A stretch of 37,559 nucleotides of DNA, taken from assembly GCF_009789225.1 (NCBI RefSeq), contig NZ_WSTA01000031.1, positions 1-37,559 of the forward strand, read 5' to 3'. Position 1 is the first letter of the stretch. Each line of letters opens with the position of its first letter. This stretch comes from Agromyces seonyuensis (GTDB taxonomy: Bacteria; Actinomycetota; Actinomycetes; Actinomycetales; Microbacteriaceae). A model generated the notes under the pieces. The model ran no database searches. It saw only the letters and a program-made list of their open reading frames with translations, and was not told the DNA's origin. This document shows, in pieces, positions 2,789 to 37,559 of the stretch. A program made the position numbers and the translations under genes.

Positions 2789-5700
2789 ATGGCCGCGCAA
2801 AACCGATGGATGCTCCGTCGTCTGATGAGGCCGCTCGCGGCAATGCTGCTGGCCGCGATGCTGCTGACCGACGGCGGGCGCTCGGCGCAGACGTCCGTCG
2901 CGCCCACCGCGTCGGGGATCGCGGGTGCGCCGGTGACGACGAGCGAGCCGGTCGGGCGGGCCGGGGCTCTCGCGGCGGCACCCGTGGTCGTGTCGACGTT
3001 CGCTCCCGAGCCTCAGCCGTCGGTCGCAGCGGCGCCAGAGGCATCCATCTCGGACGCCGCCGTACAGTCGGGCGAGAGCTGGCGAATCTCCGGCATCGCC
3101 ACGACGCCCGACGGCCAGCCCGTGCGTACCGGTCGGGCGAAGCTCGCGCAGCTCGTCACCCCGACCGGTGGTGCGCCGTACTGGCTGTGGATCGACTCTC
3201 AGTACATCGAAGACGACACCGGGCAGTACACGTTCAGCGGCACCTCGCCCGGGACTTACTCGATCGGCGTCGATCCGTACGACTCCGAGTTCGCCGAGAC
3301 GTGGTGGCCCGGCGTCACGGAGCTCGGGCAGACCCAGGGGCTAGAAATCGTGCTGGGCGGAGACTACACGCGGGACCTCGTCGTGGCGGCCGGTGCGAGG
3401 ATCTCGGGCACCGTGCAGCGGGCCGACAGCAGCCCGCACCCGCTCTACTCGGGTGGGTGGGGCAGCTTCCCACTGCTCGATCTCCATGTGTACCGGCTCG
3501 CGCCGGACGGCAGGTTCGCCGAGCAGAACCGCATCGAGAAGTTCAGCCCCGGGGGCGGATTCACCGTCGGCGGCCTGCGCGCGGGCACCTACGTCCTCAA
3601 GATCGCGACGAACCCCTACGACGGCGATCACGAGCTCGAACAGTGGTGGGGCGGGACGTCGATCAACGACGCGACGCGCATCGTGCTCGCCGACGGCGAG
3701 CACCGCGACGACGTGCGGATCCGCATGGCCGAGAAGGGCAGTATCAGCGGGCAGGTCACCGCCAACGGTGCACCGCTCGCGGGCGTCCGGGTCACGCTGA
3801 CGGCCGACGTCGATCGCAACGGCACCTTCTTCACGCACAACGGGCAGACCTGGACGGACGACGACGGGCGGTACACGATCCGTGCGCTCGAGGCGGGCGA
3901 CTACCGCGTCAAGTTCCTCCCCCAAGATGAAGAACTGCTCGCCGAGTGGTGGCCCGCCGCCCCCGTCGAGCTCGAGGCGCGGGCCGTGCCGGTGGAACTG
4001 GGGGCGGTGAGCGCCGGCATCGACGCCGATCTGCACGGGGGCAGCACGGTCTCCGGGCGTGTGCTCCGCCCCGACGGCTCACCTTCGAAGACACGGGTCG
4101 AGCTCTATCGCCGGGTACTGGTCGACGGGGCGGGCACCTGGGCGTACGTCGGGATGACGTCGAACACCGGCCCGTACCTGACCGCGAACGTCGACGGGGG
4201 GTATCGTTCCAATCCTGTCTGGCCGGGCGAGTACACGGCGCGTTTCGTTTCGCTCGAAGACCTCGAAGATGTCTGGCTGGGCGGGAGCACCGAGCAGGCG
4301 GACGCAGCGACCTTCACCGTGCTGCCGGGCCAGGACACGACGGGGATCGACGCGCAGCCCCCCGCGAAGGCGTCGATCTCCGGGGTCGTCACGCGCGATG
4401 ACGGCTTCGGCCCGCAGGTCATGTCGGTCGATGTGTACCGGGAGATCGACGGCGAGTGGGCGTTTTCGGGGACGACGAAGCCCGACGCCCTCGGTGCGTA
4501 TCGCGTCGGCGGGCTCGATCCGGGCACCTACACGGTGAAATTCAATGCGGACAAGTACCGCGAACTGCTCACCGAGTGGTGGGGTGATCAGCCGACGCAG
4601 GCGACGGCCCGGCGCATCGACCTCGGCTGGCGGGAGGCTGTGATCGGTATCGACGCGCAGATCGCCGAAGCCGGCGAGATCACCGGCACCGTCACGATCG
4701 AAAACGGCGGGAACAAGGGCGGCGGCACGGTACGGGCCTACCGGCGCGTGCTCATCGACGGCATTCCGGAATGGCAGCTCGAGCGCGAGGCGAGCATCCT
4801 CGGCTACTACCAGTTGCTGAAGCTTCGGGCAGGTGCGTGCATCGTGCAGTACGAACCCGGCGGAGGGTACGCCACTGAATGGTCAGGGGATGCGCCGGAT
4901 GCGGCGAGTGCGCGCATCATCGAGGTCATCGGCGGGATGCCGGTCAGAACGGACATCGCGATCGCGTATCCGACCGCGCTCCAATCCGCTGCGCCCACGA
5001 TCTCGGGCAGCCCGGTCGTGGGTCGAACCCTCGCGGTGCAGACGGGTGACTGGCAGTCCGGCGCGGTGCTCGCGACGCAGTGGTTCGCCGACGGCGACGC
5101 GATCCCGAGCGCGACCGGCACCTCGCTGCTGTTGGGGCCGGAGAACGCCGGTCGCAGGATCTCGGTCGCCGTGACCGGCGTTCTGGCGGGCTACCCCGCG
5201 GTGACCCGGTCGAGCACGCCGGTGCAGGTCGACTCCGGCGGCACGGCGCCGCTGCCGGGCATCTCGGGGCAACCCGCGGTCGGCGGGACGCTGACGGCGC
5301 ACCCGGGCGACTGGCCGAGCGGCACGACGTTCGCGTACCAGTGGTACGCGGACCATACCCCGATCAGCGGTGCGACCGGCATCTCGTTCGTGCTCGGCGC
5401 CGCGCAGCAGGGCGCGCGAATCTTCGTCCGGGTCACCGGCACGAACGGCTCGAGCGTCGAGGTGCGCGCGAGCGAACCGACCCGACGAGCGATACTCGGT
5501 TCGTCGGTGGTCGTGCAGGGCTCGCCGGCGGTGGGGCAGTTCTTGCAGGCGGTCCCGACCGGGTGGCCGGCCGAGACCTCGTTCGACTACCAGTGGTACG
5601 CGGACGGCGTGCTCCTCCCGCTCGGGGGCGGTCCCGGGTACGTGCCGCCGCCCTCTCGGGTCGGTCAGATCATCACGGTCCGCATCACCGCGTGGGTGCC

Positions 5701-25081: not shown

Positions 25082-26691
25082 TGCACGCCTCCCGGGAACA
25101 CGACGCCGATGTAGATCGACGGGTCGAGGAGGCCGGCCGCGGCGCGGGCGGAGAGGTCGAAGAGCGGTCCGGCGAACACGGTGAGCGCGAGCGAGAGGGC
25201 GATGAGCCCCGTCGTCGCGATGACCATCGACGGCGGCACGGTGCGGGTGGCGACGAGGGTCGCGCCTGCGGGCGCCTCCTGCAGCGACTGCGTGAGCCGC
25301 GAGCTGAAGCCCTCGACCTCGCCGCGGCCGCGCCAGAACGCCATGTTCCAGAACCGGGTGACGGCGTAGAGGGTCATGAGCGAGGTCGCGGCACCCACGG
25401 CCATGACGACCCAGACGACCCACGCGGCATCCGCGGTCTGCGAGGCGGCGAAGGCGCCGCCGACGTTGCCCTCGTCGACGGCTTCGGCGCCCGCGAGGAA
25501 CAGGCCGAGCTTGCCGAGGAAGCCGGAGAGCGGCGGGATGCCGCCGAGGTTCATCGCGGGGATGAAGTAGAGGATCGCGAGCCACGGCGCGACCTTCATG
25601 AGCCCGCCGAGCCGGCTGATGGAGGTCGCCCCGCCGACGCGTTCGATGAGCCCCGCGACGAGGAAGAGCGCCGTCTGCACGGTGATGTGGTGCACGACGT
25701 AGTAGACGGTCGCCGTCATCGAGCTCAGCGTGCCGATCGCGATGCCGAAGACGAGATAGCCGATGTGGCTGACGAGCGTGAAGCTCAGCAATCGTTTCAG
25801 GTCGGCTTGGGCGAGGGCGCCGAGGATGCCCACGAGCATCGTGAACGCCGCGATGACGAGCAGCACGATCGTCAGGTCGTTGTCGGCGAAGAGCAGCGTC
25901 TCGGTGCGGATGAGCGCGTAGACGCCGACCTTCGTGAGCAGGCCCGCGAACACCGCCGTGACGGGGGCGGGCGCCGTCGGGTAGGAGTCGGGCAGCCAGA
26001 ACGAGAGCGGGAAGACCGCGGCCTTGATGCCGAAGGCCAGCAGCAGCATGAGGTGCAGCACGAGCTGGGTCTCTTCGGGCAGCCCGCCGAGACGAACCGA
26101 GAGCTGCGCCATGTTCACCGTGCCCGTGGCGCCGTAGATGAGGGCGATCGCCGAGAGGAAGAACAGCGAGGAGACCAGGCTCACGATGATGTACGTGACG
26201 CCGGCGCGGATGCGCTCGCCCGTGCCGCCGAGCGTGAGCAGCACGTAGCTCGCCGAGAGCAGGATCTCGAAGCCGACGTACAGGTTGAACAGGTCGCCCG
26301 CGATGAACGCGTCGAAGACGCCGGCCGAGAGGATCAGGTAGGCCGGGTGGAAGATCGAGATCGGCGTCTCGCGATGGTTGTCGGCGATGCCCTGGCCGAC
26401 GGCGTACACGAGGACGCCGAGCAGCATGAGCGCCGACACGAGCAGCATGATCGCCGAGAGCCGGTCGACGACGAGCGCGATGCCCCACGGGGCCTCCCAC
26501 CCGCCGAGGTGCACGGCGATCGGGCCGTTGCGGTCGACTTCGATGAGGAGCAGCGTCGCGATCGTCGCGACCGCGAACAGCGTCGCCGTGGAGACCGCGA
26601 CCTGCGCGCGCGGGTGGCGGCCGAGGATGAGGGCGAGCGCCGCGCCGAGCAGCGGCACGAGCACGACGAGGGGCACGAGCGCGTCGGTCAT
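25078..26691 (-). CDS. mnhD: Mrp-type Na+/H+ antiporter subunit D
   Basis: 537 residues with about 14 helices, homologous to the NuoL/M/N proton-pumping subunits of complex I. LYVGFEILLSASYVLL holds the conserved membrane Glu of TM5, and FGIKAAVFPLSFWLPDSYPTAPAPVTAVFAGLLTKVGVYAL the Lys and Pro-rich proton-pathway segment. Family length is normal (about 490-540). It forms, with MnhA, the ion-translocating part of the hetero-oligomer. The ATG overlaps the mnhC stop (ATGA), with GGGAGCC as ribosome binding site inside mnhC. Confidence 0.96.
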   Translation of the reverse strand: MTDALVPLVVLVPLLGAALALILGRHPRAQVAVSTATLFAVATIATLLLIEVDRNGPIAVHLGGWEAPWGIALVVDRLSAIMLLVSALMLLGVLVYAVGQGIADNHRETPISIFHPAYLILSAGVFDAFIAGDLFNLYVGFEILLSASYVLLTLGGTGERIRAGVTYIIVSLVSSLFFLSAIALIYGATGTVNMAQLSVRLGGLPEETQLVLHLMLLLAFGIKAAVFPLSFWLPDSYPTAPAPVTAVFAGLLTKVGVYALIRTETLLFADNDLTIVLLVIAAFTMLVGILGALAQADLKRLLSFTLVSHIGYLVFGIAIGTLSSMTATVYYVVHHITVQTALFLVAGLIERVGGATSISRLGGLMKVAPWLAILYFIPAMNLGGIPPLSGFLGKLGLFLAGAEAVDEGNVGGAFAASQTADAAWVVWVVMAVGAATSLMTLYAVTRFWNMAFWRGRGEVEGFSSRLTQSLQEAPAGATLVATRTVPPSMVIATTGLIALSLALTVFAGPLFDLSARAAAGLLDPSIYIGVVFPGGVQ

Positions 26692-27278
26692 GCGCGGCTC
26701 CCTTCGTCATCGTCGGTCGAGTAGCCGCTTGCGGCGTATCGAGACCCGGGACGGCCCGTTGCGGGGTCGTCGGGCGGGTTCGGGCGGGTGAACCCGTCGG
26801 GTTCGTCGAGGTCGAGGTGCGCGAACTCGTCGTCGGGTTCCTCGTCGGACTCCTCGATGATGCGCTGGATGGCCTCGTCGTCCTCGTGGCTGGAGCGCTG
26901 CAGGTCGGCGTGCTCCGACATGTCCTCGTCGAGGTCCGCCTCGTCGCCGATCTGGTCGCCCTTCGCGCCGAGCTGCGCGAGCCACCAGGAGCGGTAGATG
27001 AGGGCGAGCATGAACGCCGTGATGCCGAGGTTGATGACGATCGCGGTGAGGATGAAGGCCTGCGGCAGCGGGTCGCTGATCGAGGCCGGGTCGACGCCGT
27101 CGCCGAGGATCGGCGCGAGACCGGGCGCCCCGGCCATGACGAACATCAGGATGTTCACCGCGTTGCCCGCGAGGAGGAACCCGATGAGCACGCGCGTCAG
27201 CGAGCGCTCGAGCATGACGTAGACGCCTGCGCCGAACAGCACGGCGGCGAGGACGACGAGGGTGAGGCTCGCGCTCAT
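26688..27278 (-). CDS. mnhC: Mrp-type Na+/H+ antiporter subunit C with long acidic tail
   Basis: 196 residues. Residues 1-105 are the normal MnhC, homologous to NuoK: three helices, with ERSLTRVLIGFLLAGNAVN and PLPQAFILTAIVINLGITAF as the family signatures. Most MnhC proteins end soon after this (about 110-125 residues). Here a further 90 residues follow, dominated by Asp and Glu (EESDEEPDDEFAHLDLDEPD), and the last 25 residues are read from a REP-like repeat at 26715-26746, giving SRYAASGYST. The tail should face the cytoplasm. Overlaps with mnhA and mnhD are four bases each. Confidence 0.93.
   Translation of the reverse strand: MSASLTLVVLAAVLFGAGVYVMLERSLTRVLIGFLLAGNAVNILMFVMAGAPGLAPILGDGVDPASISDPLPQAFILTAIVINLGITAFMLALIYRSWWLAQLGAKGDQIGDEADLDEDMSEHADLQRSSHEDDEAIQRIIEESDEEPDDEFAHLDLDEPDGFTRPNPPDDPATGRPGSRYAASGYSTDDDEGSRA
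26715..26746 (-). repeat. REP-like repeat, locus A (inside mnhC)
   Basis: Reading the minus strand, the element has the two conserved ends GGTCTCGATACG and GCTACTCGACC separated by a short CCGCAAGCG centre. The same ends recur at 31684-31717 and 36391-36417, and inverted copies at 31619-31653 and 36339-36371. Here it lies fully inside the mnhC frame, close to its stop codon. Confidence 0.85.
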
Positions 27279-30200
27279 GGCGTCACCTCCGCCGACGTGG
27301 GGTCGCGCAGGGCGGATGCCGTGGCCTCGTTGCGCGGCTCGGCCGGGCCGGCACCGCCGGCGGCCTCGTTCTCGGCCGTCTCCTGCACCTCGCGCTGGTG
27401 GTCGACCTCGGCGCCGAGGGCGCGCAGGATGTCGAGCACGAGGCCGACGACGACGAGGTACACGCCGATGTCGAAGAGCGTCGACGTGCCGATCGAGATC
27501 GTGCCGAGGAAGCCGGCATCGGCCTCGAACCACGTCGAAACGAAGGCCGTCTCGCCGAAGAAGATCGGTGCGGCGGCTGTGCCCGCGGCGAGCAGCAGGC
27601 CGGTGCCGAGCAGCGTGCCCGCCTGCACCGGCGCCGCTTCGCCGAGCTCGTAGCGGCCTCCGGCGAGGTAGCGCGCGACGAGCGCGAGGCCCGCGACGAG
27701 CCCGCCCGCGAACCCGCCGCCGGGGGCGTTGTGGCCGACGAAGAGGAAGAAGACCGACACGACGATCGCCGGGTGGAAGAGCAGGCGCACGAGCACCTCG
27801 AGCAGGATCGACCGGTTCGTCGGCGTCAGGGTGCGCCCGGCGAGGAGCCAGGTCTGCCGCGTCTCCGCGGCATCCGCGAGCTCGTCGTGCTCGTCGGCGA
27901 CGTCGGCCAGGCGCGGGCGCGCCCCGCGGATCGACCAGGCGGGCTCCGGCACCGGCTTGCGGCTGCGGCGGTCGACGGCGAGGTCGAGCCGGGGTGCGCC
28001 GCCCGTGCGGCCCGTCACGAAGACGAGTGAGGCGACGCCCGTGGCGACGGCGATGAGCACGGAGATCTCGCCGAGGGTGTCCCACGCGCGGATGTCGACG
28101 AGCATGACGTTGACGATGTTCTTGCCGTGCGCTTCGATCGCGAGGGCAGGCAGGCCCTCGGCGATGGTCGGCTCGATGCGCGCGCCGAGGGCGATGAGCC
28201 CCACGATGCCCATCGTCGCACCGGCGAGGACCGCGATGAGTAGACGCCACCGGCGCTTCGCCGGCGGGTTGCGCGTGCCGAGGTCGCGCGGCAGCCGGCG
28301 CAGCACGAGTACGAACACCACGAGGGTGAGCGTCTCGACGAGCGCCTGGGTGAGCGCGAGATCGGGTGCGCCGTTCAGGCCGAACATGAGGACGAGGCCG
28401 TACCCGGTCACGCCCACGAGCAGCACCGCGGCGACGCGCTGCTGCACGACGGCGGCGGCGACGCCCGCGATGATCATGACGGCCGCGAGCACGGGCTGGA
28501 CGCCGGAGTCCCAGAGGCGCAGCTCCTCGGGCCAGGCGCCGCTCGCGAGGGCCGCACCGCCGACGCCGCCGACGAGCACGACCAGGAACACCGCGAGGTA
28601 GCCCGGCAGGCCGCGCTGCTGGATCTTCACGGTCAGCCAGGCGGCGAAGCGGTCGATCGCGCCGACGATGGAGAGGTAGCCGCGACTCGAGTCGACGAGC
28701 GGCGGGACGGCGGCCTGGAGCCGGGAGACCTCGCGTTTCGCGACGACGAGGAACGCGCCGACCGCGAAGACCGCGAGCGAGAGGAAGAGGGCCGGCTCGA
28801 GTCCGTGCCAGAGCGCCAGGTGGTACGGCTTCCCGCTGGAGGGGAACTCGTGGGCGTAAGCCGCGAGGAGCGGCTCGACGAGTCCGGGCGCGAGCGCGAA
28901 CACGAGGCTGAGGGCCGCCAGCAGCAGCGGGACGATCGAGATCGTCGGCCCCGGCAGGTGCAGCTTCGTCTCGGCGACGCCGTTCTTGCGCCAGAAGGCG
29001 CCCCACACGAAGCGCACCGCGTACGCGACCGTCAGCATCGAGCCGATGACCGCGCCGACGAGGGCGACCCACGCCCACGGCTCGCCGTGCGTCGCCGCCT
29101 CGAGCAGGCTCGTGAAGACGGCCTCCTTCGCGACGAAGCCGAACAGCGGCGGCACACCCGCCATCGAGGCGGCCGCGACGATGCCCGCGGTCGCGACGAG
29201 CGGCATCCGCCGGCCGAGCCCGGAGAGCTTGCGCCAGTCGCGCGTGTGCGCGGCGTGGTCGACGATGCCGACGACGAGGAAGAGCGCCGCCTTGAACAGC
29301 GCGTGCGCGAGCAGCAGCGCGACCGCGGCGAGCGCCGCATCCTGCGTGCCGATGCCGGAGACGAGCATGAGGAAGCCGAGCTGGCTCACCGTGCCGTAGG
29401 CGAGCACGAGCTTCAGGTCGTACTGCCGGAGCGCGCGCCAGCCGCCGACGAGCATGGTGAACGTGCCGAGGCCGATCACGATCGGCGCCCAGATCGCGAG
29501 GTCGGCGTAGCCGGGGGCGAGCCGCGCCACGAGGTAGACGCCCGCCTTCACCATCGCGGCGGCGTGCAGGTACGCCGAGACCGGCGTGGGCGCCGCCATG
29601 GCGGCCGGGAGCCAGAAGTGGAACGGCACGAGGGCGCTCTTGGAGATCGCCCCGAGCAGGATGAGTCCGATCGCCCACTCGCCCGCCGCCCCCGTGACCG
29701 GGTTCGCGACGAGCTCGGCCAGGCTCGTGGTGCCGCCCGCGACGGCGAGGATCGCGAGCCCGACGAGCATGGCGAGCCCGCCGAACGTCGTGACCGTGAG
29801 GGCCTGCAGGGCGGCGCCTCGGCTCGCCTTGTTGCCCGTGTAGTGGCCGATGAGCAGGTAGGACAGGACGCTCGTGAGCTCCCAGAACGTGAACATCACG
29901 AAGACGTCGTCGGCGGTGACGAGGCCGAGCATGACGCCGGCGAAGGCGAGCAGCAGCGCCGCGAAGCGGCCGAGTCCGGGCTCGTCGTCGTCGAAGTACC
30001 GGGCGCAGTAGGCGAGCACGCCCGCCCCGATGCCCGTGACGATGAGGGCGAGCAGCAGCGAGAGCGCGTCGAGGCGGAAGTCGAGGGCGATGCCGAACTG
30101 CGGGATCCATTCGACGCGTTCGGTCGGGATGCCGCCGTCGAGGACGGCGGGCAGCAGCGTGGCGAGCCAGACGAAGACGGCCGCGGGCAGCAGGGCGATG

Positions 30201-30286
30201 ACGAGGAAGACGCGGGCGTGCAGGACGCGTGCGAGGAACGGCGTGGCCACCGCCAGGGCGGCGAACAGCGCGAGGCTCGGGATCAT
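27275..30286 (-). CDS. mnhA: Mrp-type Na+/H+ antiporter subunit A fused to subunit B
   Basis: 1003 residues. The N-terminal 500 residues are NuoL-like: TFWELTSVLSYLLIGHYTG carries the key Glu and PTPVSAYLHAAAMVKAGVYL the Lys of the proton path. The middle has the MrpA-specific helices (LLVGVTGYGLVLMFGLNGAPDLALTQALVE). From about residue 830, FHPAIVVSVFFLFVGHNAPGGGFAGGLVAG and the following helices are an MnhB domain, so MnhB is fused to the C-terminus; no separate mnhB exists. The operon is therefore complete. A strong AGGAGG precedes the ATG. TAGACT at 30322-30327 (minus strand) is a likely -10. The complex exports Na+ in exchange for protons, giving salt and alkali tolerance. Confidence 0.97.
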   Translation of the reverse strand: MIPSLALFAALAVATPFLARVLHARVFLVIALLPAAVFVWLATLLPAVLDGGIPTERVEWIPQFGIALDFRLDALSLLLALIVTGIGAGVLAYCARYFDDDEPGLGRFAALLLAFAGVMLGLVTADDVFVMFTFWELTSVLSYLLIGHYTGNKASRGAALQALTVTTFGGLAMLVGLAILAVAGGTTSLAELVANPVTGAAGEWAIGLILLGAISKSALVPFHFWLPAAMAAPTPVSAYLHAAAMVKAGVYLVARLAPGYADLAIWAPIVIGLGTFTMLVGGWRALRQYDLKLVLAYGTVSQLGFLMLVSGIGTQDAALAAVALLLAHALFKAALFLVVGIVDHAAHTRDWRKLSGLGRRMPLVATAGIVAAASMAGVPPLFGFVAKEAVFTSLLEAATHGEPWAWVALVGAVIGSMLTVAYAVRFVWGAFWRKNGVAETKLHLPGPTISIVPLLLAALSLVFALAPGLVEPLLAAYAHEFPSSGKPYHLALWHGLEPALFLSLAVFAVGAFLVVAKREVSRLQAAVPPLVDSSRGYLSIVGAIDRFAAWLTVKIQQRGLPGYLAVFLVVLVGGVGGAALASGAWPEELRLWDSGVQPVLAAVMIIAGVAAAVVQQRVAAVLLVGVTGYGLVLMFGLNGAPDLALTQALVETLTLVVFVLVLRRLPRDLGTRNPPAKRRWRLLIAVLAGATMGIVGLIALGARIEPTIAEGLPALAIEAHGKNIVNVMLVDIRAWDTLGEISVLIAVATGVASLVFVTGRTGGAPRLDLAVDRRSRKPVPEPAWSIRGARPRLADVADEHDELADAAETRQTWLLAGRTLTPTNRSILLEVLVRLLFHPAIVVSVFFLFVGHNAPGGGFAGGLVAGLALVARYLAGGRYELGEAAPVQAGTLLGTGLLLAAGTAAAPIFFGETAFVSTWFEADAGFLGTISIGTSTLFDIGVYLVVVGLVLDILRALGAEVDHQREVQETAENEAAGGAGPAEPRNEATASALRDPTSAEVTP

Positions 30287-30363
30287 CCCACCTCCTCTGC
30301 GCGACCGTCTCGGGTTCGGTCAGTCTACCGGCCGTCTTGGGAGTCTTACCCAGGTTTATCTGC

Positions 30364-30392
30364 TTGCGGTAAATCGAGTTCAGGTTCAGAAT
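30364..30392 (+). promoter_or_regulatory. Promoter of leaderless ATPase gene
   Basis: TTGCGG at 30364-30369 (-35) and CAGAAT at 30387-30392 (-10) are separated by exactly 17 bp, and the GTG start follows after six bases. Transcription should therefore begin at the start codon. The -35 lies in the 112-bp gap shared with the divergent mnhA promoter. Confidence 0.72.
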
Positions 30393-30398
30393 CCTCGC

Positions 30399-31628
30399 GT
30401 GGATGCGGTCACGAACCCCTATACGCCCAATGCCGGTGCGACGCCCGAGGCGCTCATCGGCCGCGACGAGCTGCTGGACTCGTTCGACATCCTGCTGCGC
30501 CGCCTCGAGCGGGGGCGCGCCGAGCAGTCCATGATCCTCACCGGCCTGCGCGGCGTCGGCAAGACCGTGCTGCTCGGCGAGTTCGCCCGGCTCGCGCTCG
30601 CCGCGAAGTGGGAGGTCGTCGAGCTCGAGGCGATGAAGCACGACGACAAGCGCTTCCGCCAGGTGCTGTTCTCGCAACTGCGCTCCGCGCTCCTGCGCAT
30701 CTCGCCCCGCGCCCGCTGGAACGATCGCGCGCGTCGCGCGGCCGGCGTCCTCTCCTCCTTCGGGCTCACGGCATCGACCGACGGGTCCGTCGCCGTGACG
30801 TGGGACATCGAACCGCTCGAAGGGGCCGGCGACCACGGCGAGCTCGCGCTCGACCTCACCGACGTGCTCGTCTCCCTCGGCGAGCTCGCCGCCGACCACG
30901 GCCACGGGTTCGTGCTGCTGGTCGACGAGGTGCAGTTCCTCGGCGAGCGGCAGCTCGAGGCCGTCATCCAGGCCATCCACCGCACGGTGCAGCTGCGCCT
31001 GCCGATCACGTTCGTCGGCGCGGGCCTGCCGCAGATCGCCGAGCTCGCCGGCGACGCCAAGTCCTACGCCGAACGACTCTTCCGCTTCCCCGAGGTGGGT
31101 TCCCTCGAACGGAGCGAGGCCGACCTCGCGTTCTCGTCGCCCGCGCTCGCCGAGGGCGTCGGCTGGGAGGCCGACGCACTCGACGCCGCCTACGCGCTCA
31201 CGCAGGGCTACCCGTACTTCATCCAGGAACTCGGCTACCAGGTGTGGTCGGTCGCCCAGGCCTCCCCGATCACGGCGGCCGACGTCGCCGTCGCCCGCGA
31301 GGCCTACGAGTCCAAGCTCGACGGCTCGTTCTTCCGCGTGCGCCTCGACCGCACCACACCGCTGCAGACGGCCTACCTGCGCGCCATGGCCGAACTCGGC
31401 CCCGAGCCGCAGAAGGCGTCGGAGGTCGCGAAGCTCATGGGCCGCGAGTCCACCCAGCTCGGCCCCACCCGCGCCGAGCTCATCGACATGGGACTGCTCT
31501 TCACGCCCGTCCACGGCTACGCGGCGTTCACGGTGCCCGACTTCGACCGTTTCATGCTGCGGGCCGTGCCCGAGCTCGTCGTGCCGCCGCCCCGACACCG
31601 GAAGAAGGACTCCCCGTCGGACGAGTAG
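30399..31628 (+). CDS. AAA-type ATP-binding protein with C-terminal winged helix
   Basis: 409 residues from GTG 30399. The frame is open further upstream, but that part overlaps mnhA and the promoter fixes the start. PEALIGRDELLDSFDILLRRL opens a STAND/archaeal-type ATPase module; MILTGLRGVGKTVLL is Walker A and FVLLVDEVQFL Walker B, with ITFVGAGLPQIAEL as the sensor strand. After the ATPase lid, residues about 310-385 (TAYLRAMAELGPEPQKASEVAKLMGR) look like a winged helix for DNA or protein contact. No partner gene is adjacent. Function is unknown; such proteins occur both in housekeeping roles and in mobile or defence loci. The stop TAG lies in a REP-like repeat. Confidence 0.88.
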   Translation: MDAVTNPYTPNAGATPEALIGRDELLDSFDILLRRLERGRAEQSMILTGLRGVGKTVLLGEFARLALAAKWEVVELEAMKHDDKRFRQVLFSQLRSALLRISPRARWNDRARRAAGVLSSFGLTASTDGSVAVTWDIEPLEGAGDHGELALDLTDVLVSLGELAADHGHGFVLLVDEVQFLGERQLEAVIQAIHRTVQLRLPITFVGAGLPQIAELAGDAKSYAERLFRFPEVGSLERSEADLAFSSPALAEGVGWEADALDAAYALTQGYPYFIQELGYQVWSVAQASPITAADVAVAREAYESKLDGSFFRVRLDRTTPLQTAYLRAMAELGPEPQKASEVAKLMGRESTQLGPTRAELIDMGLLFTPVHGYAAFTVPDFDRFMLRAVPELVVPPPRHRKKDSPSDE

Positions 31629-31761
31629 GGAGCGCAGCGACCGGATCGAGACCCGGGTGACCCGACCTCGCGGGCGTCGAGCGGGGTCTCGATACGGCGC
31701 TTCGCACCTACTCGACCGGCGGGGGCCTACTCGACCAGTGGTGGGCTACTCGACCGGCGGG
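31619..31761. repeat. REP-like repeat cluster, locus B
   Basis: Between two convergent genes lie four copies or part copies: an inverted one at 31619-31653 (GACGAGTAG ... ATCGAGACCC), a direct one at 31684-31717 (GGTCTCGATACG ... CTACTCGACC), and two 3' halves, CTACTCGACCAG at about 31727-31738 and CTACTCGACCGG at 31746-31757. ATCGAGACCC at 31645-31654 pairs with GGGTCTCGAT at 31684-31693, and CGAGTAGG at 31622-31629 with CCTACTCG at 31707-31714, so the cluster can fold into one large hairpin. The stop codons of both flanking genes lie inside it. Confidence 0.85.
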
Positions 31762-32645
31762 ACCGTCCCGACGCCCGCGAGCATCGACAGGTCGACCGAG
31801 TCGACGCCCTCCCGTGCGATCGCCGCGGTGAAGGCCTCCTGCACGGCCGGCAGGTCCTCGCCGTCGACGCCGTCGAGCAGGTGCACGAGCTCGGTGCCGA
31901 CGACGATCGACCACGCCAGGTCGGGATCGACCGGTTCCGTGCGGGGCAGTTCGTCGGCGTGGATGCCCGTGAGCCCGAGGTCCGCGAGCCGCGCCGCGAA
32001 CGACCCCGGCTCGCCGACGTGCCGCACCGACGGCCCGAGGTCGGCCGGGTCGGCCGCGCCGAGCCGCTCGTCGAAGGGACCGGCCGCTTCGACGACGGCC
32101 GGGATCAGTTCGGCGAACGCCCGCCCCGCCCACACCAGGAACCCGATGCGGCCGCCGGGCCGCACCCGCGAGACGAGGTCGGCGGCGGTGCGCTCCACCT
32201 CGTCGTCGCCGACGACGTCGAGCGCGAGCGCCAACTGCACGACGTCGTACGAGCCGAACCCCCAGTCGGCGAGCCCCAGCCGGTGCAGCGCGAGCTGCGG
32301 CAGCGCCTCGCCGGCATCCGCCCGCGCGCGGAGCGCGAGCGCCTGATCGCGCAGCACGGCGTCGACCCGGCCGCCCGGGCCGACGAGCGCCGCCGAGGGC
32401 ACCGAGGCGGCCCCGGTGCCGACGTCGAGCACGATCTCGTCGAATTGCGGTCTCGTGCGCACGAGCAGCGCATCGGCCGCCCGCTGCCAGATCAGCTCCG
32501 TCAGCGCGGCCGTCGCCTCGACATCCCGCGGCCGCCGAGGCGGAGCGGTGCCAGCGGTGTCATCCGTCGCCGAATCGTCGTTCCTCGTATCCGGTGCGAT
32601 CTCGACCTCATCGTCGACCTCGGTACCGGGATCCCCCATCCCCAT
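31746..32645 (-). CDS. Class I SAM-dependent methyltransferase-like protein
   Basis: 299 residues from ATG 32645, which follows CAGAAT by six bases on the minus strand (leaderless type). The first 40 residues are acidic and disordered. EIVLDVGTGAASVPSAAL is motif I of a Rossmann-fold methyltransferase, YDVVQLALALDVVGDDE the motif with the acidic residue before the substrate loop, and RVRPGGRIGFLVWAGRAF motif III, as in ubiquinone/menaquinone-type or UbiE-like enzymes. The acidic ribose-binding residue after motif I appears to be Asp in RVDAVLRD. Substrate unknown. The last codons, PPVE-stop, come from the REP-like repeat at locus B. Convergent with the ATPase gene. Confidence 0.86.
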   Translation of the reverse strand: MGMGDPGTEVDDEVEIAPDTRNDDSATDDTAGTAPPRRPRDVEATAALTELIWQRAADALLVRTRPQFDEIVLDVGTGAASVPSAALVGPGGRVDAVLRDQALALRARADAGEALPQLALHRLGLADWGFGSYDVVQLALALDVVGDDEVERTAADLVSRVRPGGRIGFLVWAGRAFAELIPAVVEAAGPFDERLGAADPADLGPSVRHVGEPGSFAARLADLGLTGIHADELPRTEPVDPDLAWSIVVGTELVHLLDGVDGEDLPAVQEAFTAAIAREGVDSVDLSMLAGVGTVPPVE

Positions 32646-32651
32646 CCGCCC

Positions 32652-32681
32652 ATTCTGCCCCCGACCGGGGCCCCGCCGCAG
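32652..32681 (-). promoter_or_regulatory. Promoter of leaderless methyltransferase gene
   Basis: On the minus strand CTGCGG (32676-32681) and CAGAAT (32652-32657) are 18 bp apart, and the ATG follows CAGAAT after six bases. Both hexamers closely match those at 30364-30392, so the two convergent genes share a promoter type. Confidence 0.62.
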
Positions 32682-32819
32682 CGCCCGGCGGGGGATGTCG
32701 TGACCGGACGGTGATCGCCGTCACAGCGGATCGATCGGAGGAAGTGCGAGACTGGGTGTCGTATCCGCGCGGGCGCCCCGGGCCCCGACGCCCCGAATCG
32801 TCGAAACGAGACCTCCCTC

Positions 32820-33791
32820 ATGAACCGTGCCCTGCGCCGCGGCGCGCCCGTCGCGCTCGCCCTCGCCTCCGCGCTCGTGCTCGTGGGCTGCTCCGGCAGC
32901 TCCGAGCCGAGCGAGACGACCGACGCCGCCGCCGCCGAGTGCCTCGACGTGCCCTCGGGCGACGCGAGCGACTCCGTGACGGTCGACGGTGAGATCGGCG
33001 GCGAGGTGACGGTCGAACTCGACGGCGCGCTCGCCGTCGAGGAGACCGAGCGCACCGTCGTCCAGGACGGCGACGGCGACGTGCCCACCGCCGACGCGTC
33101 GGCGATCGCGGTACTGAGCCTGTTCAACGGCGCCGACGGCTCGCCGCTCGCCGCCGGTCAGCAGCTCCCCGTGCCCTCCGAAGAGACGCAGCCCTACATC
33201 GAGGGCATCGAGAAGGCCGTGAACTGCCTGCCCGTCGGCACGCGTGCCGTGACGGTCGCGGCTCCGGCGGACCTCTGGGGCGACACCGGTAACGAGGCGA
33301 TCGGCGTCGAGGCCGGCGCCACGATCGTCATCGTCGCCGACGTCATCGAGGCGCCCGAGCCCGAGGCGCTGCCCGAGCCGGGCGAGTGGACCGAGAACAC
33401 GCCCACGATCGAGTTCCACGACCAGGCCACCGCGCCGACCCTCACCCTCAACGGCGAGCCGCAGGCCGACTTCCTCCGCTACGTCGTGACCGAGGGCGAC
33501 GGCGAAGAGGTCGTCCAGGGCGACACCGTGAGCGTCATGTACTACGGCGTCGACGCCGCGACCGGCGAGATGTTCGACAACAACTACGGCTCCGACCCGA
33601 TCTCGTTCGGCACGGGCGACGTGGTGCAGGGCTTCGGCGGCGGCCTCGTCGGCATGAAGGTCGGCTCGCAGTTCGTCGTCACGATGCCGCCGTCGCTCGG
33701 CTACGGCGAGGCGGGCGAGTCCTCGAGCGACCTCGCGGGCAAGACGCTCGTGTTCGCGATCGAGATCGTCGACACCACGCACGCGGAGTAG
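32820..33791 (+). CDS. FKBP-type peptidyl-prolyl isomerase lipoprotein, two FKBP-like domains
   Basis: 323 residues. Signal sequence with lipobox LVGC, so anchored on the outer membrane face. The C-terminal half (about 215-320) is a standard FKBP domain: SVMYYGVDAATGEMFDNNYG, GFGGGLVGMKVGSQ and MPPSLGYGE are the strand, helix and loop that form the proline pocket. The first half (about 50-185) looks like a second, degenerate FKBP domain: SLFNGADGSPLAAG and GIEKAVNCLPVGTRAVTVAAPADLWG align by eye, but pocket residues are missing. It should help fold exported proteins. No Shine-Dalgarno sequence is obvious. A strong terminator follows. Confidence 0.93.
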   Translation: MNRALRRGAPVALALASALVLVGCSGSSEPSETTDAAAAECLDVPSGDASDSVTVDGEIGGEVTVELDGALAVEETERTVVQDGDGDVPTADASAIAVLSLFNGADGSPLAAGQQLPVPSEETQPYIEGIEKAVNCLPVGTRAVTVAAPADLWGDTGNEAIGVEAGATIVIVADVIEAPEPEALPEPGEWTENTPTIEFHDQATAPTLTLNGEPQADFLRYVVTEGDGEEVVQGDTVSVMYYGVDAATGEMFDNNYGSDPISFGTGDVVQGFGGGLVGMKVGSQFVVTMPPSLGYGEAGESSSDLAGKTLVFAIEIVDTTHAE

Positions 33792-33802
33792 TCCCGCAGA
33801 CG

Positions 33803-33834
33803 GAACGGCCGGCCCCCTCGGGGGCCGGCCGTTC
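33803..33834. terminator. Bidirectional terminator
   Basis: GAACGGCCGGCCCCC at 33803-33817 pairs with GGGGGCCGGCCGTTC at 33820-33834; the innermost pairs must open for a loop. TGCGTT follows on the plus strand. It lies between convergent genes and serves both the FKBP lipoprotein and the ECF transporter operon. Confidence 0.9.
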
Positions 33835-33852
33835 TGCGTTCGCGGAGATCGG

Positions 33853-34485
33853 TCAGGATGCCTCGGGCGCGGCGTCCGGGTCGACGGCCGCGGTGCCCGT
33901 GGCGGGCGCGGGCGACTTGGGCGCGCGGACGACGCGGCCGTTCTCGACGGGCGCCGCGAGGCCGCGCACCACGCCGGTGCGCTCGACGCGCTTCGCGAGC
34001 GAGAGGCCGGCCCAGGTCGCGAGCACCTCGGAGAGGAGCAGCACGGCGAAGAAGGTGATCTGCAGGCCGAGGCCGTAGTTCGGCAGGTCGATGCTCGCGA
34101 CGGCGTACGGCGCGTAGAGCGCCCCGAAGACGAGCGCGGCGACGTAGAAGAGCCACGGCTTCCAGTAGCGGTAGAGCGCGAGCGCGAAGACGATCTCGAT
34201 GAAGACCGCGATCATGAGGTTCGTCACGATCGCGCTCGCCCCGTAGGGCTGGAAGGGCGTTTCGACGAGGCCGGCGATGAGGGCGACGAGGATGCCGACA
34301 CCGGGACGGCGCAGCAGCGCCATGGCGACGACGATCGGCAGCAGCCAGATGCCGGCGACCGCGGCGAACCCGGGCGGGAAGACGCCGAAGATCGCGGCGG
34401 AGAAGTGGTTGACGGGGATGAGCAGCACGCCGGCGGCGGCGCCGATGGCGGCGCACGTCAGCAGCAGACGGGTGGGGAACTTCAT
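33853..34485 (-). CDS. ECF transporter S component, YkoE-like
   Basis: 210 residues with about six helices from ATG 34485 (GAGGAG upstream). The helix-loop pattern GIWLLPIVVAMALLRRPGVGIL...GLVETPFQPYGASAIVTNL, with the conserved Trp, Pro-Gly and Glu, matches the YkoE family of substrate-binding S components, which in Bacillus serve hydroxymethylpyrimidine/thiamine uptake. The last 40 residues are a Pro/Ala-rich cytoplasmic tail. It follows the T component by 98 bp, so the three genes should be one operon. Because the operon seems to be iron-regulated and has no TPP riboswitch, another substrate such as haem or an iron chelate must be considered. Family assignment is firmer than substrate. Confidence 0.85.
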   Translation of the reverse strand: MKFPTRLLLTCAAIGAAAGVLLIPVNHFSAAIFGVFPPGFAAVAGIWLLPIVVAMALLRRPGVGILVALIAGLVETPFQPYGASAIVTNLMIAVFIEIVFALALYRYWKPWLFYVAALVFGALYAPYAVASIDLPNYGLGLQITFFAVLLLSEVLATWAGLSLAKRVERTGVVRGLAAPVENGRVVRAPKSPAPATGTAAVDPDAAPEAS

Positions 34486-34532
34486 GCGGGGCTCCTCGGC
34501 GGAGGTGGGACGTGGGAGTGGGGAGGTGGAAC

Positions 34533-34568
34533 GGGCGGTGCGAGTGGTGCGGGCGGTGCGAGTGCTGC
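34533..34568 (-). repeat. 18-bp tandem duplication in intergenic space
   Basis: GGGCGGTGCGAGTGGTGC at 34533-34550 is followed by a copy with one change at 34551-34568 (plus-strand reading). It fills part of the 98-bp gap between the T and S component genes. No further structure was seen in that gap. Confidence 0.9.
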
Positions 34569-34583
34569 GGGCGCCGGGGCGGC

Positions 34584-35447
34584 TCAGCCGCCGCCGGTGC
34601 GGGAATCGCTGAGCGAGCCGAGGCCCGCCTGGATGACCCACCAGTAGAGCAGGACGGAGACCGCCCAGAACCCGACGACGAACACCCAGTCGCGGACCCG
34701 CCAGGGCACGAGGTGCCGCTCGGTGCGGGTCGGGTGGGCGCCGAAGGCGCGGGCATCCATCGCGAGGGCGACGCGCTCGGCGTGCCGGATCGCGCTCGCG
34801 AGCAGCGGCACGGCGTAGCCGAGGATGCGCTTCGTCGCCGCGATCGGGCCGCGGCCGCGCTCGGTGCCGCGGACGCGGTGGGCGGCGCGGATGACCTCGA
34901 GCTCGTGGCCGAACCGCGGCACGAACCGGTAGGCGGCGAGCGCCGTGTAGCCGACGCGGTAGGGCACCTTGAGGTTCTGCACCATGGCGCGCGCGAGGTC
35001 GGGCCCGGTCGAGGTGAGGCCCGCGATGAGGGAGAGCAGCAGCAGGCTCGCGAGGCGCATGGCGGTCGCGAGCCCCGTGAGGTAGGCGCTCAGCTCGAAC
35101 GTCCAACCGCCGATCGTGACGAGCGGGATGCCCGCGCCGAGGGCGTCGGCCGGCAGCCGCGACGGGTCGACCCAGATGCCGAAGCTCACGCCGAGGACCG
35201 CGATGGCGATCGGCAGCCCGACGAGCAGCAGGGCGAGCATCCGGCCGGACAGTCGCGCGCCGGTCAGCAGCAGCACGAGGGTCAGCGCGACGAACGCCGC
35301 CGGGATCGCGACGCCGCGCGAGAACAGCAGGAGCAGCATGATCGGCAGCGGGCCGAAGAGCTTCGCGAGCGGGTTCAGGTGGTGGAGGTAGCGCCACTCC
35401 GGCGCCGGGGCGGCTTCGCGGTACGGGTCGATGGCGAGGGCGCTCAT
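34584..35447 (-). CDS. ECF transporter T component (transmembrane coupling protein)
   Basis: 287 residues from ATG 35447, overlapping the ATPase stop by four bases (ATGA). Several N-terminal helices (LFGPLPIMLLLLFSRGVAI; LLLVGLPIAIAVLGVSF) lead to the EcfT coupling region with two Arg-containing coupling motifs, AAHRVRGTERG and ALAMDARAFGAHP, that dock on the two ATPase domains. This identifies EcfT/CbiQ-type protein. It links the ATPases to the YkoE-like S component. The frame extends to 35558 but only as a shadow of the ATPase gene. Confidence 0.94.
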   Translation of the reverse strand: MSALAIDPYREAAPAPEWRYLHHLNPLAKLFGPLPIMLLLLFSRGVAIPAAFVALTLVLLLTGARLSGRMLALLLVGLPIAIAVLGVSFGIWVDPSRLPADALGAGIPLVTIGGWTFELSAYLTGLATAMRLASLLLLSLIAGLTSTGPDLARAMVQNLKVPYRVGYTALAAYRFVPRFGHELEVIRAAHRVRGTERGRGPIAATKRILGYAVPLLASAIRHAERVALAMDARAFGAHPTRTERHLVPWRVRDWVFVVGFWAVSVLLYWWVIQAGLGSLSDSRTGGG

Positions 35448-37321
35448 GCGAGGCGCTCCGCGGCGGTCGCCTCGGCGAGGTCGGCGGGGAACTCGGCCGG
35501 CGGGTGCGGCTCGTCGACGCGGCCGGGCAGCTGGGCGAGGCGCGTGACGGTGTGCCACTCCGGGTGCCGTCCGAGCGCGGCCGTCGCGCGTGCCAGCGGC
35601 GGGCGCCGGAGCCCGGCCTCCTCGATGAGCGCACCCGCGAGCACGTCTTCCGTCGGACCGACCCCGAGCAGGCGACCGCCGCCCATGACGGCGACATGGG
35701 TCGCGTAGTCGGCGACGAGCTGCAGGTCGTGCGTGACGACGAGCACGGTCGTGCCGCCGCGGTTGAGCGCCGTGAGGAGGTCGAGCAGTGCGGTCGCGCG
35801 CTCCCGGTCCTGGCCGAACGTCGGCTCGTCGAGCGCGAGCACCGGGGCGCCCGCGATGAGCGCCGTGCCGACGGAGAGCCGTCGCTTCTGCCCGCCCGAG
35901 AGCAGGAACGGATGCTGCTCGCGGTGCGCTTCGAGGCCGAAACGCGCGAGCATCGCATCGACGCGCGCACCGCGCTCGTCGTCGGGCACGCCCTGGATGC
36001 GGAGCCCGTGGTCGAGCTCCTCGGCCGCCGTGTGGGTGATGAACTGATGTTCGGGGTTCTGGAAGACGAAGCCGACGTGGCGGGCGAGCGTGCGCGGGTC
36101 GGTCGTCGCCGGGTCGAGCCCGTCGATCAGGATGCGGCCCTTCGGCGCCGGGATGACGCCCGCGATCGCCTGCAGCAGGGTCGACTTGCCGGCCCCGTTG
36201 ACGCCGACGATCGCGAGGAAGTCGCCCGGCTCGACGTCGAGGTCGACGCCGTGGACGACGGTCGGGCCGCGCTTGCCGCCGCGCTTGACGTCGAGGCCGC
36301 GCACGCGGACGCCGCCTGACGGGTGCACCGCATCCGCCGGTCGAGTCGGCGCGCCAGCGCCGTATCGAGACTCCGCAGGGTCGCTCACCGGGTCTCGATA
36401 CGCTTCGCTACTCGACCGACGGGGCGTCGCTGCTCGGCCGGCGGGGGCGGGCAGCGCAGGCAGCGAGTCCAGCGCGTCGAGGGCCGCGGTCAGCTCGGCC
36501 GGCGTGAGCGGCAGCTCGGGGATCGGCGCGCCGGCCTCGCGCAGCCGCATCGCGGCGAGTGTCGACACCGGCAGCCACACGCCGAGGTCGAGGAGGTCGT
36601 GGGCGAGCCCCCCGAGGATCTCGCGCACCGGGCCGTCGAGGACGAGCCGGCCCGAGGCATCCAGCACGACCACCCGGTCGACGAGGCCGACGGCCTGGTC
36701 GAGGTTGTGCTCGACGAGCACAATGGCGTGGTCGCCGTCGGTCGCGAGCTCGCCGAGCACGGCGTACACCTCGTCGATGCCGGCCGGGTCGAGGTTCGCG
36801 GTGGGCTCGTCGAGCACGAGCAGCGGGGTGCGCATCGCGAGCGCGCACGCGATGGCGAGGCGCTGGCGGCCGCCGCCGGAGAGCGTGTCGGGGTTGTCGA
36901 AACGGCGCTCCCAGAGCCCGACGCGCGTGAGCGACTCCTGCGCGCGGGCGAGCACCTCGTCGAGAGGCAGGAGCTGGTTCTCGGTCGCGAAGCACACCTC
37001 GTCGAGCAGGGTGCCGGTCACGATCTGGGCGTCGGGGTCCTGGAAGACCATCGCGGCGTGCTCGGAGAGCGCGCCGACGGGCGTGGTGCGGGTGTCGAGG
37101 CCGGCGAGCGTCACCGTGCCCTCGAGGGTCGCGGGCACATCGTGGGGGATGAGCCCGTCGAGCGCGAGGGCGAGCGTCGACTTGCCCGAACCGCTCGGGC
37201 CGAGCAGGAGCACGACCTCCCCCGGCGCCACGTCGAACGAGACGCCGTCGGGCGTCGCGCGATCGGCGCCGTCGTGGCGGATGCGGACGCCGTCGAGGCG
37301 GAGGAGGGGTGCTGGGGTCAC
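35444..37321 (-). CDS. ECF transporter double ATPase (YkoD-like fusion)
   Basis: 625 residues from GTG 37321 (GGAAG upstream). The frame is open to ATG 37378, but that start has no ribosome binding site and would place a hairpin in the coding region. Two ABC ATPase domains are fused. Domain 1: LLLGPSGSGKSTLAL, Q-loop VFQDPDAQ, signature LSGGGRQRLAI, Walker B LLVLDEPTANLDP, H-loop VEHN. Domain 2: IVGVNGAGKSTLLQ, VFQNPEHQ, LSGGQKRRLSV, PVLALDEPTFGQD, VTHD. All catalytic residues are present in both. This is the A-A' pair of an ECF importer, as in YkoD. The linker (about residues 300-330) is encoded by REP-like repeat copies. First gene of the operon, behind an iron-box-like operator. Confidence 0.95.
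   Translation of the reverse strand: MTPAPLLRLDGVRIRHDGADRATPDGVSFDVAPGEVVLLLGPSGSGKSTLALALDGLIPHDVPATLEGTVTLAGLDTRTTPVGALSEHAAMVFQDPDAQIVTGTLLDEVCFATENQLLPLDEVLARAQESLTRVGLWERRFDNPDTLSGGGRQRLAIACALAMRTPLLVLDEPTANLDPAGIDEVYAVLGELATDGDHAIVLVEHNLDQAVGLVDRVVVLDASGRLVLDGPVREILGGLAHDLLDLGVWLPVSTLAAMRLREAGAPIPELPLTPAELTAALDALDSLPALPAPAGRAATPRRSSSEAYRDPVSDPAESRYGAGAPTRPADAVHPSGGVRVRGLDVKRGGKRGPTVVHGVDLDVEPGDFLAIVGVNGAGKSTLLQAIAGVIPAPKGRILIDGLDPATTDPRTLARHVGFVFQNPEHQFITHTAAEELDHGLRIQGVPDDERGARVDAMLARFGLEAHREQHPFLLSGGQKRRLSVGTALIAGAPVLALDEPTFGQDRERATALLDLLTALNRGGTTVLVVTHDLQLVADYATHVAVMGGGRLLGVGPTEDVLAGALIEEAGLRRPPLARATAALGRHPEWHTVTRLAQLPGRVDEPHPPAEFPADLAEATAAERLA
36339..36417 (-). repeat. REP-like inverted repeat pair, locus C (inside ATPase gene)
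   Basis: An inverted copy at 36339-36371 (GGTCGAGTCGG ... CGTATCGAGAC) and a direct copy at 36391-36417 (GGTCTCGATACG ... GCTACTCGACC) are separated by 19 bp. The pair lies wholly within the ATPase gene and reads through in frame as the linker, including SEAYRD and AESRYGAGAPTRPAD. In another frame the copy would give a TAG stop, which the actual frame avoids. Confidence 0.88.
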
Positions 37322-37340
37322 GGGGCTTCCGAATGCGTGA

Positions 37341-37380
37341 GGATGCCGATGCCCCGCGGATCCCGTGCGGGACGGCATCC
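37341..37380 (-). promoter_or_regulatory. Leader hairpin before the ECF ATPase gene
   Basis: GGATGCCG at 37341-37348 pairs with CGGCATCC at 37373-37380, and inside it CCCGC at 37353-37357 pairs with GCGGG at 37367-37371. It lies between the iron box and the GTG start. It has no T tract and matches no riboswitch that I recognise. It overlaps the alternative ATG at 37378. Confidence 0.45.
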
Positions 37381-37393
37381 GCGGTGCGAGGAG

Positions 37394-37412
37394 TTAGGCC
37401 AGCCTAAGCGAA
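37394..37412 (-). promoter_or_regulatory. DtxR/IdeR-like iron box upstream of ECF operon
   Basis: TTAGGCCAGCCTAA at 37394-37407 is a perfect 6-2-6 palindrome. The 19-bp window matches the DtxR consensus (TTAGGTTAGCCTAACCTAA) at 15 of 19 positions. It lies in the 75-bp gap between the upstream gene and the ATPase gene's longest frame, 73 bp before the GTG, where a promoter must be. Binding of an iron-loaded DtxR/IdeR repressor is inferred. Confidence 0.72.
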
Positions 37413-37453
37413 CTGCGCTCCCCGTGCATCCGTGCGCTCGGCGGCCCGCCCGC

Positions 37454-37559
37454 TCAGGCCAGCCGCGCCCGGAAGCGCACCTGCGCGCGCGTGCGCGGCG
37501 TCGAGTGCAGCGGCGTCGGCGGGAGGCCCGTGGCCGCCGCCTCGAGCTCGGCGGCGATC
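37454..37559 (-). CDS. C-terminal end of an unrecognised protein (partial)
   Basis: The minus strand is open from the window edge to a TGA at 37454-37456. The last 35 residues include AAELEAAATGLPPTPLHS and end RAQVRFRARLA. Composition and codon-position GC look coding. The family could not be recognised. It reads in the same direction as the ECF operon, 75 bp before that operon's longest frame; with an apparent promoter in the gap, it is probably a separate unit. Confidence 0.6.
   Translation of the reverse strand, partial: IAAELEAAATGLPPTPLHSTPRTRAQVRFRARLA

Follow-up and report, generated by a model that had tools for sequence, protein, structure and literature searches.

A large family of REP/REPIN-like hairpins without a recognisable RAYT in its actinobacterial hosts

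The stretch of DNA analysed here (the window) comprises 37,559 bp, contig 95 of the 169 in the 3.92 Mb draft genome (G000) of Agromyces seonyuensis, and holds copies of a short palindromic element with conserved ends of 12 and 10 bp. The copies are probably non-autonomous mobile hairpins of the kind represented by repetitive extragenic palindromic (REP) sequences and their inverted doublets, the REPINs. As far as two hidden Markov models (HMMs) go, the actinobacterial mover is not a recognisable REP-associated tyrosine transposase (RAYT), and the family is treated here as a RAYT-less variant of REPs and REPINs for which an HNH nuclease is a candidate partner. A preliminary description of the window had placed copies at three loci, singly or as inverted pairs; all of them were recovered, and its view of a REP-like palindromic family that is tolerated in coding DNA is supported.

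Number, structure and residence of the hairpins

A genome-wide search for exact GGTCTCGATACG-N(2-32)-CTACTCGACC matches in A. seonyuensis returned 283 (144 forward and 139 reverse) and the reversed-pattern control returned 0, so the copies are not due to chance and are not confined to the three loci of the window. The value of 283 is slightly above the true copy number because a few matches share an end (e.g. C48:3358-3411 and 3379-3411). Across the family Microbacteriaceae, matches were obtained in 71 of 299 genomes and 32 of 85 genera, with 0 in every row of the reversed control, which bears out the statement in the preliminary description that similar strings occur in this family. Counts were very uneven between sister species, both in Agromyces (283, 79, 27, 24, 10 and 0) and in Rathayibacter (614, 358, 169, 0 and 0).

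A scan of named genomes gave at least 118 stretches with copies, at least 86 from Actinomycetota (Microbacteriaceae, Nocardioides, Aeromicrobium, Gordonia, Flexivirga and others among the matches listed) and at least 32 from Chloroflexota (at least 20 titled Anaerolineae, -ales or -aceae), the phylum split being taken from record titles, with two genera looked up. The scan is a lower bound, and phyla besides these two may hold copies. With a relaxed pattern, nine Chloroflexota genomes had 20 to 76 matches each versus 0 to 5 in the control. Copies were also present in 22 stretches of IMG/VR viral contigs, and nine of these contigs (L187, L190, L192, L194, L195, L197, L200, L204 and L205) have several genes in common and 1-2 copies each. 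The 96 bp inverted pair of the window had no match among 50,697 phage or 72,556 plasmid records. Neither 12-mer of the ends turned up in the literature searched, and a description in other papers is possible.

Judged from sequence, the element has the form of a hairpin in which an asymmetric internal loop is conserved (TCGATACG on one arm facing CTACTC). The interior between the ends varies by copy yet is self-complementary, with 67% of mirrored positions forming Watson-Crick pairs versus 30% in shuffled interiors (178 distinct interiors). The outer four bases covary (GGTC/GACC, GGTT/AACC, GATC/GATC and GATT/AATC), most loci having been selected by the GGTC form. In all 42 distinct 33-mers, 92.9% of the cells in a 13-pair model were paired versus 84.1% after shuffling, and 40 cells had changes on both sides versus 13.8; neither value was reached in any of 500 shuffles. 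A subset of 25 sequences (the 42 less 5 removed by an outer-pairing filter and 12 near-duplicates removed by hand) was 96% paired, with 27 both-sided changes versus 8.1 (0 of 500 shuffles), and slid controls for it were at most 45% paired. Related sequences can beat shuffles without any structure; the slid controls do not. The motif RNCR follows the 3' foot, with C at +3 in 97% of 200. GNA loops form stable DNA hairpins, and CCTTCGACAAGCTCAGG-like and GGTCTCGACAAGCTCGACC-like repeats are widespread.

Residence relative to genes was assessed in 421,591 bp of the A. seonyuensis genome (the window and 20 stretches chosen for listed copies), with copies of up to 3 mismatches and a purpose-made gene caller, by which 91.0% of bases were coding. 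The 128 copies comprised 106 outside genes, 12 whose overlap with a gene end was exactly 10 bp, and 10 that lay fully inside a gene (5 of 48 when counted by cluster). The earlier statement that these copies, unlike classical REPs, do not stay between genes was not upheld, since only 10 of 128 were fully inside although 91% of the sequence is coding. The genes flanking the 118 other copies were convergent in 68 cases, tandem in 47 and divergent in 1, and 2 copies lay at an edge; of the background gene pairs, 65 were convergent, 212 tandem and 65 divergent. The first copy 3' of a gene had one orientation in 54 of 60 cases (54:6), and the stop of the gene in the 12 end-overlapping copies was TAG in 11 and TAA in 1. 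Inverted -+ pairs were the commonest arrangement of close neighbours (42 of 79), and spacer lengths had peaks at 18 and 9 bp; the spacers of 25 pairs vary, some with a GTCGAC-like middle in common. Single copies were also common in this genome.

Copies survive mainly just downstream of genes, nearly always with the mRNA reading GGUCGAGUAG-hairpin-CGUAUCGAGACC, where the element may serve as a 3'-end hairpin or may simply do least harm. Landing at the end of a gene yields a clean stop because one gene-sense frame terminates at once in TAG, and the rare copies in linkers or tails become protein because the 27-mer has no stop in its remaining frames. A location downstream of genes, TAG stops from REP ends and intragenic copies are all described for classical REPs in passages of Di Nocera et al. 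(2013, PMC3733652). Since stop donation and intragenic copies are known there, tolerance in coding DNA is not what makes this class notable; the coding copies are a known side effect of a REP/REPIN-like family.

Insertion at the apex of other palindromes, which a few Chloroflexota and viral copies had seemed to show strikingly, was considered and dropped. It was not significant in Chloroflexota (3 of 52 versus a mean of 1.9 in re-paired flanks), marginal in viral copies (4 of 25 versus a mean of 0.9 and a maximum of 4) and absent in the remaining sets (8 of 175 versus 9.0, and 5 of 85 versus 9.3). The Anaerolineales locus L146 was grouped with the actinobacteria in these tallies and in those of outer stems and spacers, a shift of one locus. 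As a separate observation, three Chloroflexota copies (L069, L131 and L155) lie inside a second palindrome, GATTGCTTCG...CGCAATGAC, which we take to resemble CGTC REPs.

Mobility and the candidate movers

The evidence for mobility consists of presence/absence differences, in which the direction of change is not proved. Where one Rathayibacter site (L101 7325-7491) holds about 160 bp with a copy, three relatives have 23-26 bp instead, between flanks about 88-92% identical. At a second site with five copies (L304 10182-10725), the corresponding flanks in G383 adjoin, overlapping by 2 bp. Rathayibacter also has a repeated unit, an inverted pair of about 130 bp that has CATGCTGGTCGAGTAG and its complement as its borders. 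The matches listed for it number dozens, at about 87-95% identity, and suggest that the pair may be the replicating unit in this genus.

In the mechanism that we propose, one strand would fold into a short outer helix (GGTC/GACC, GGTT/AACC or GATC/GATC), followed by the conserved asymmetric internal loop and an inner helix, arbitrary in sequence as long as its strands are complementary, that ends in a tiny loop, and the conserved RNCR would stand after the 3' foot. Something would then read the internal loop and the feet as a structure and copy the element elsewhere, singly or as an inverted pair.

The Y1 transposase domain (PF01797, Y1_Tnp) was matched in none of the 71 copy-bearing Microbacteriaceae genomes and in 3 of the 299 overall. 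In a separate set it was found in 0 of 29 actinobacterial genomes and in 9 of 9 Chloroflexota (G045 and G362 are probably the same genome). Because PF01797 covers RAYTs only in part, according to a portion of PMC6006769, the RAYT model NF047646, identified through three Chloroflexota proteins, was also used. It matched none of 33 actinobacteria, including one with 614 copies, and all 5 Chloroflexota tested, 4 of them above the curated cut-off. The absence of a transposase near the copies, noted in the preliminary description, thus extends to Y1/RAYT genes in the whole draft genome of A. seonyuensis, and a RAYT was set aside as the mover in actinobacteria. A gene could have been missed in any single genome, since draft assemblies break at repeats.

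Recurrent neighbours were sought by clustering the open reading frames of 140 loci. Judged on the nine non-viral clusters listed, these were a DUF222 cluster and mostly common families (ABC proteins and response regulators, assigned by eye). The multicopy gene beside the Rathayibacter copies encodes DUF222 (PF02720) and HNH domains, the latter just under the Pfam cut-off. This nuclease would be the best candidate mover in Rathayibacter, where its gene is often bounded by inverted copies. All 12 DUF222 genes fetched from Rathayibacter genome G045, a set first found by a query that itself held copies, had a copy no more than 300 bp from the 3' end, and copies stood on both sides in 9; the values for other genes in G045 were 25 of 157 and 1 of 157, respectively. 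An HMM search of G045 gave 16 DUF222 hits, one of which (L310) had no copy nearby and another (L400) copies on both sides. Homology with the unit at L101 ended within 8 bp of the outer end of a copy on at least one side in 9 of the 12 paralogues (on both sides in 2). A left - and a right + copy stood at or near the unit ends in L288, L290, L292, L293 and L295, as in L101; this clean arrangement was not seen in L287, L291, L294 and L296-L298.

Four solo pairs had 42-55 bp in common with the L101 unit on the right (91-100% identity, two including the stop triplet of the gene) and about 40 bp on the left (88-93%). Both ends are therefore common to the solo pairs and a gene-carrying unit, as in miniature inverted-repeat transposable elements (MITEs), in a comparison that covered Rathayibacter. 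Some Rathayibacter units are accordingly pairs that enclose a nuclease gene, or the solo pairs are deleted units.

The wider explanation, in which a DUF222-HNH (13E12-type) nuclease is the general mobiliser, the REPs are its terminal inverted repeats and solo pairs are MITE-like derivatives, we consider doubtful. Outside Rathayibacter, copies were near 7 of 10 DUF222 loci in Aeromicrobium and 3 of 11 in Nocardioides G366. Across Microbacteriaceae, 59 of the 71 copy-bearing genomes had DUF222, compared with 125 of the 228 others, figures that are not corrected for ancestry. In a separate tally that scored about 7 candidates per genome, DUF222 counts denote presence rather than copy number. Flanking copies were found at none of 11 loci in Nocardioides terrae, 6 in Agromyces bracchium and 5 examined of the 16 in Gordonia, and in other Microbacteriaceae any copy was present at 2 of 20 DUF222 loci, which came from the top Pfam scorers and are not a fair sample. 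The presence of copies and not their side was scored in this later survey, which sometimes picked antisense frames. Even the flanking in Rathayibacter is qualified by the copy-bearing query through which the first loci were found and by the HMM-found locus without copies. As a universal mover the nuclease is thus unsupported outside Rathayibacter, in part Aeromicrobium, and one Nocardioides, and was kept as a candidate. In Aeromicrobium, arrays of alternating orientation with interiors of at least 25 nt lie upstream of DUF222 genes (L144 4171-4899 and L336 580-1308). No paper linking DUF222-HNH genes to flanking hairpins was found in the literature searched, mostly by titles.

A tentative extension, to which we give rather little credence, is a REP/REPIN system without HUH transposase, in which a DUF222-HNH nuclease has the hairpins as its inverted ends and spreads them, an HNH counterpart of the REPtron. 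Were it true, reading of the internal loop alone, and not of the helices, would explain how the family reached two phyla, and the Agromyces of the window and the Chloroflexota would keep hairpins moved by a related or a lost enzyme.

Orphan RAYT REPs, copies moved by a Y1 transposase that was later lost or was supplied transiently by phages or plasmids, are an unlikely source of the family. One strand reads GGTCGA-GTAG-hairpin, and a GTAG tag beside a hairpin is the hallmark of RAYT REPs; that REPs can stay on after the gene has been lost is likewise mentioned in parts of the RAYT literature (PMC3733652; PMC6006769). The Y1 and RAYT matches of the Chloroflexota carriers and the copies in viral stretches also agree with this explanation. 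It is opposed by the missing Y1_Tnp matches in copy-bearing Microbacteriaceae, by the missing RAYT-model matches in the actinobacteria tested, and by the unmatched pair of the window in phage and plasmid records. Furthermore, 17 Chloroflexota stretches around weak Y1 matches (15 of them also matched by the RAYT model) held no full GGTC-foot element, one having a shorter GGTCTCGACAGGCTCGACC, and a repeat search at four Chloroflexota Y1 stretches gave three RAYT genes with other palindromes at both sides. Single copies lay near three short IS200-type genes (L208, L209 and L216) and one other Y1 gene (L223). The Chloroflexota RAYT genes at L259 3004-3549, L258 3466-4023 and L261 3313-3855 have palindromes of their own (e.g. 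GGAGTCGAGGCTTCAGCC in L259).

That the element is not mobile, and is instead a host-functional RNA hairpin (a terminator or 3'-end stabiliser) repeatedly arisen by selection, fits its fixed orientation at gene 3' ends, the strong convergent bias and RNA folding that favoured the mRNA-sense strand (the single 33-mer tested outdid its shuffles, z -2.5), but is very improbable given 0 versus hundreds of matches between sister species, the dozens of matches to the paired Rathayibacter unit, copies within unrelated proteins, the lack of any run of more than 3 T within 12 nt downstream (mRNA sense) of the 128 copies, and the lack of an Rfam match at gathering score in window positions 26000-37559 or in 8 loci (one chance-level match to mir-607, E 3.6, overlapped 31615-31721).

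Several points weigh against a mobile hairpin with an HNH partner. Movement was not directly seen, and the empty sites could be deletions. The fixed ends of the element are in part there by construction, as most loci were gathered via exact ends, and the outer-stem figures of the 25-sequence subset are biased by the outer-pairing filter and hand-picking, for which the unfiltered repeat on the full 42 was done. By DNA folding energy the two 27-mer strands were no better than shuffles; of four strands, only the two 33-mer strands were, somewhat. Wobble counts gave no folding strand (GT+TG 17, AC+CA 27). Finally, DUF222 was absent from 9 of 9 Chloroflexota carriers tested, as it was from G142 (24 copies) and G276 (67 copies), and the single DUF222 gene in the genome of the window is not flanked (0 of 1).

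Copies in the window and copies read as protein

The copies of the window and the genes that they enter or end are listed in the table. Two decayed partners (at 31619-31653 and 36339-36372) and two solo right ends (at 31727 and 31746) fill out the set. The reported contribution to four proteins is real, and consists of the MnhC tail, the linker of the energy-coupling factor (ECF) ATPase and two gene stops.

Table. Elements and associated genes in the window (positions in bp).
Feature	Position	Strand	Remarks
Single element, exact ends	26715..26746	-	In-frame C-terminal tail of MnhC, SRYAASGYST translated through the copy
mnhC-like gene (Oxidored_q2)	26688..27278	-	Variable tail contains the element
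Decayed element	31619..31653	-	2 mismatches in ends; GGACGAGTAG is the TAG stop of the AAA ATPase gene
AAA_16 ATPase gene	30030..31628	+	3' end within the element, ...GGACGAGTAG; TAG at 31626-31628
Element, exact ends	31685..31717	+	Between two convergent genes
Solo right end CTACTCGACC	31727..31736	+	
Solo right end	31746..31755	+	Minus strand GGTCGAGTAG is the stop of the gene at 31746-32645
Gene without Pfam match	31746..32645	-	One NCBIfam match far under cut-off; terminates in the element end, ...GGTCGAGTAG
Left member of inverted pair	36339..36372	-	2 mismatches; in frame in the ECF ATPase linker
Right member of inverted pair	36391..36417	+	Exact 27-mer; 18 bp separate it from the left member
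Two-domain ECF-type ABC ATPase gene	35444..37321	-	Linker joining the two ABC domains translated through the pair (residues 301-327)

In-frame copies were found in a cytochrome-biogenesis-like membrane protein and a NUDIX-like protein (both named from sequence alone), L-aspartate oxidase, CarA, MnhC and the ECF ATPase, and the four that were placed against relatives or structures all lay in linkers or tails. The best solved relatives of CarA align to residue 380, and its copy begins at about 382. In L-aspartate oxidase the copies make up residues 391-448; the alignments of four solved L-aspartate oxidases stop at 380-384, and some of fumarate reductases continue to 422.

Comparison of orthologous loci showed that copies differ between relatives. 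Among 30 Agromyces mnhC loci, the window included, an exact copy was present in the window only; there was one copy with 3 mismatches, and one further tail holds a likely remnant in the other orientation (judged by eye). The mnhC tail of another Agromyces (G321, L039) encodes STGSGQ, seemingly from another palindromic repeat that has settled in this permissive tail. The ECF linkers of 13 of 14 relatives lacked the element, and the remaining one (G079) had a one-mismatch copy of its own (L372 2012-2054), translated as GRVAPARSDDPHRDP, a different peptide from that of the window. The two genomes apparently made independent use of one permissive linker site, as judged by these differing copies. 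For annotation, 'AYRDP'-like tails or linkers in actinobacterial proteins become recognisable as element sequence, not conserved protein.

Comparison with known systems

The element is a REP in the broad sense, being short, palindromic, high-copy and mainly intergenic. With the GTAG REPs (the REPs of Escherichia and Pseudomonas and their bacterial interspersed mosaic elements, BIMEs), as portrayed in parts of PMC3733652, it shares 20-50 bp palindromes in hundreds of copies with compensatory stems and short loops, a GTAG where the hairpin has its foot, a preference for sites 3' of genes, TAG stops and some intragenic copies. Unlike in GTAG REPs, the GTAG is not terminal; it is embedded in a conserved frame of 12 and 10 bp that has an outer helix of its own. 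It adjoins the inner helix (in exact copies as a consequence of the search pattern) and is partly paired in the modelled fold. A RAYT gene flanked by these REPs, a further feature of the GTAG class, was not found in the actinobacterial carriers tested. PMC3733652 does not list Actinobacteria with the GTAG phyla, and the stem 'actinobacter' is absent from the main text of that paper.

CGTC REPs, including the rickettsial palindromic element (RPE), are similarly REP-like, with intragenic cases and no dedicated transposase known, as treated in a section of PMC3733652. The present element differs from them in having no CGTC tag or CCA tail, in its stem and internal loop, and in its GGTC..GACC feet with RNCR. 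The inverted pairs correspond to REPINs, defined as two inverted REPs in the portion of PMC3116915 on REP doublets; unlike REPINs, they have no RAYT tie, and some enclose a nuclease gene.

The nuclease genes resemble the REP13E12 or DUF222-HNH multicopy genes of actinobacteria in having PF02720 and HNH domains and many copies per genome; REP13E12/HNH/DUF222 is named as a repeat class in Mycobacterium tuberculosis in a passage of PMC10589994. They differ from REP13E12 genes in the inverted short hairpins that flank them, which are common to hundreds of solo copies. REP-flanked DUF222-HNH genes would give a first hint at the role of some of the multicopy 13E12-type genes of actinobacteria.

As a rule REPs go with a RAYT, and CGTC REPs are the known exception. 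With up to 614 exact matches per genome and Y1 nearly absent, either an enzyme of another class can drive a REP system or REPs persist long after their enzyme has gone. Because the internal loop is defined and the helices are free to vary, binding and cleavage can be tested directly. What is unusual relative to the known systems is a large REP/REPIN-like family without a recognisable RAYT in its actinobacterial hosts, in which the Rathayibacter units make the question of the mover testable.

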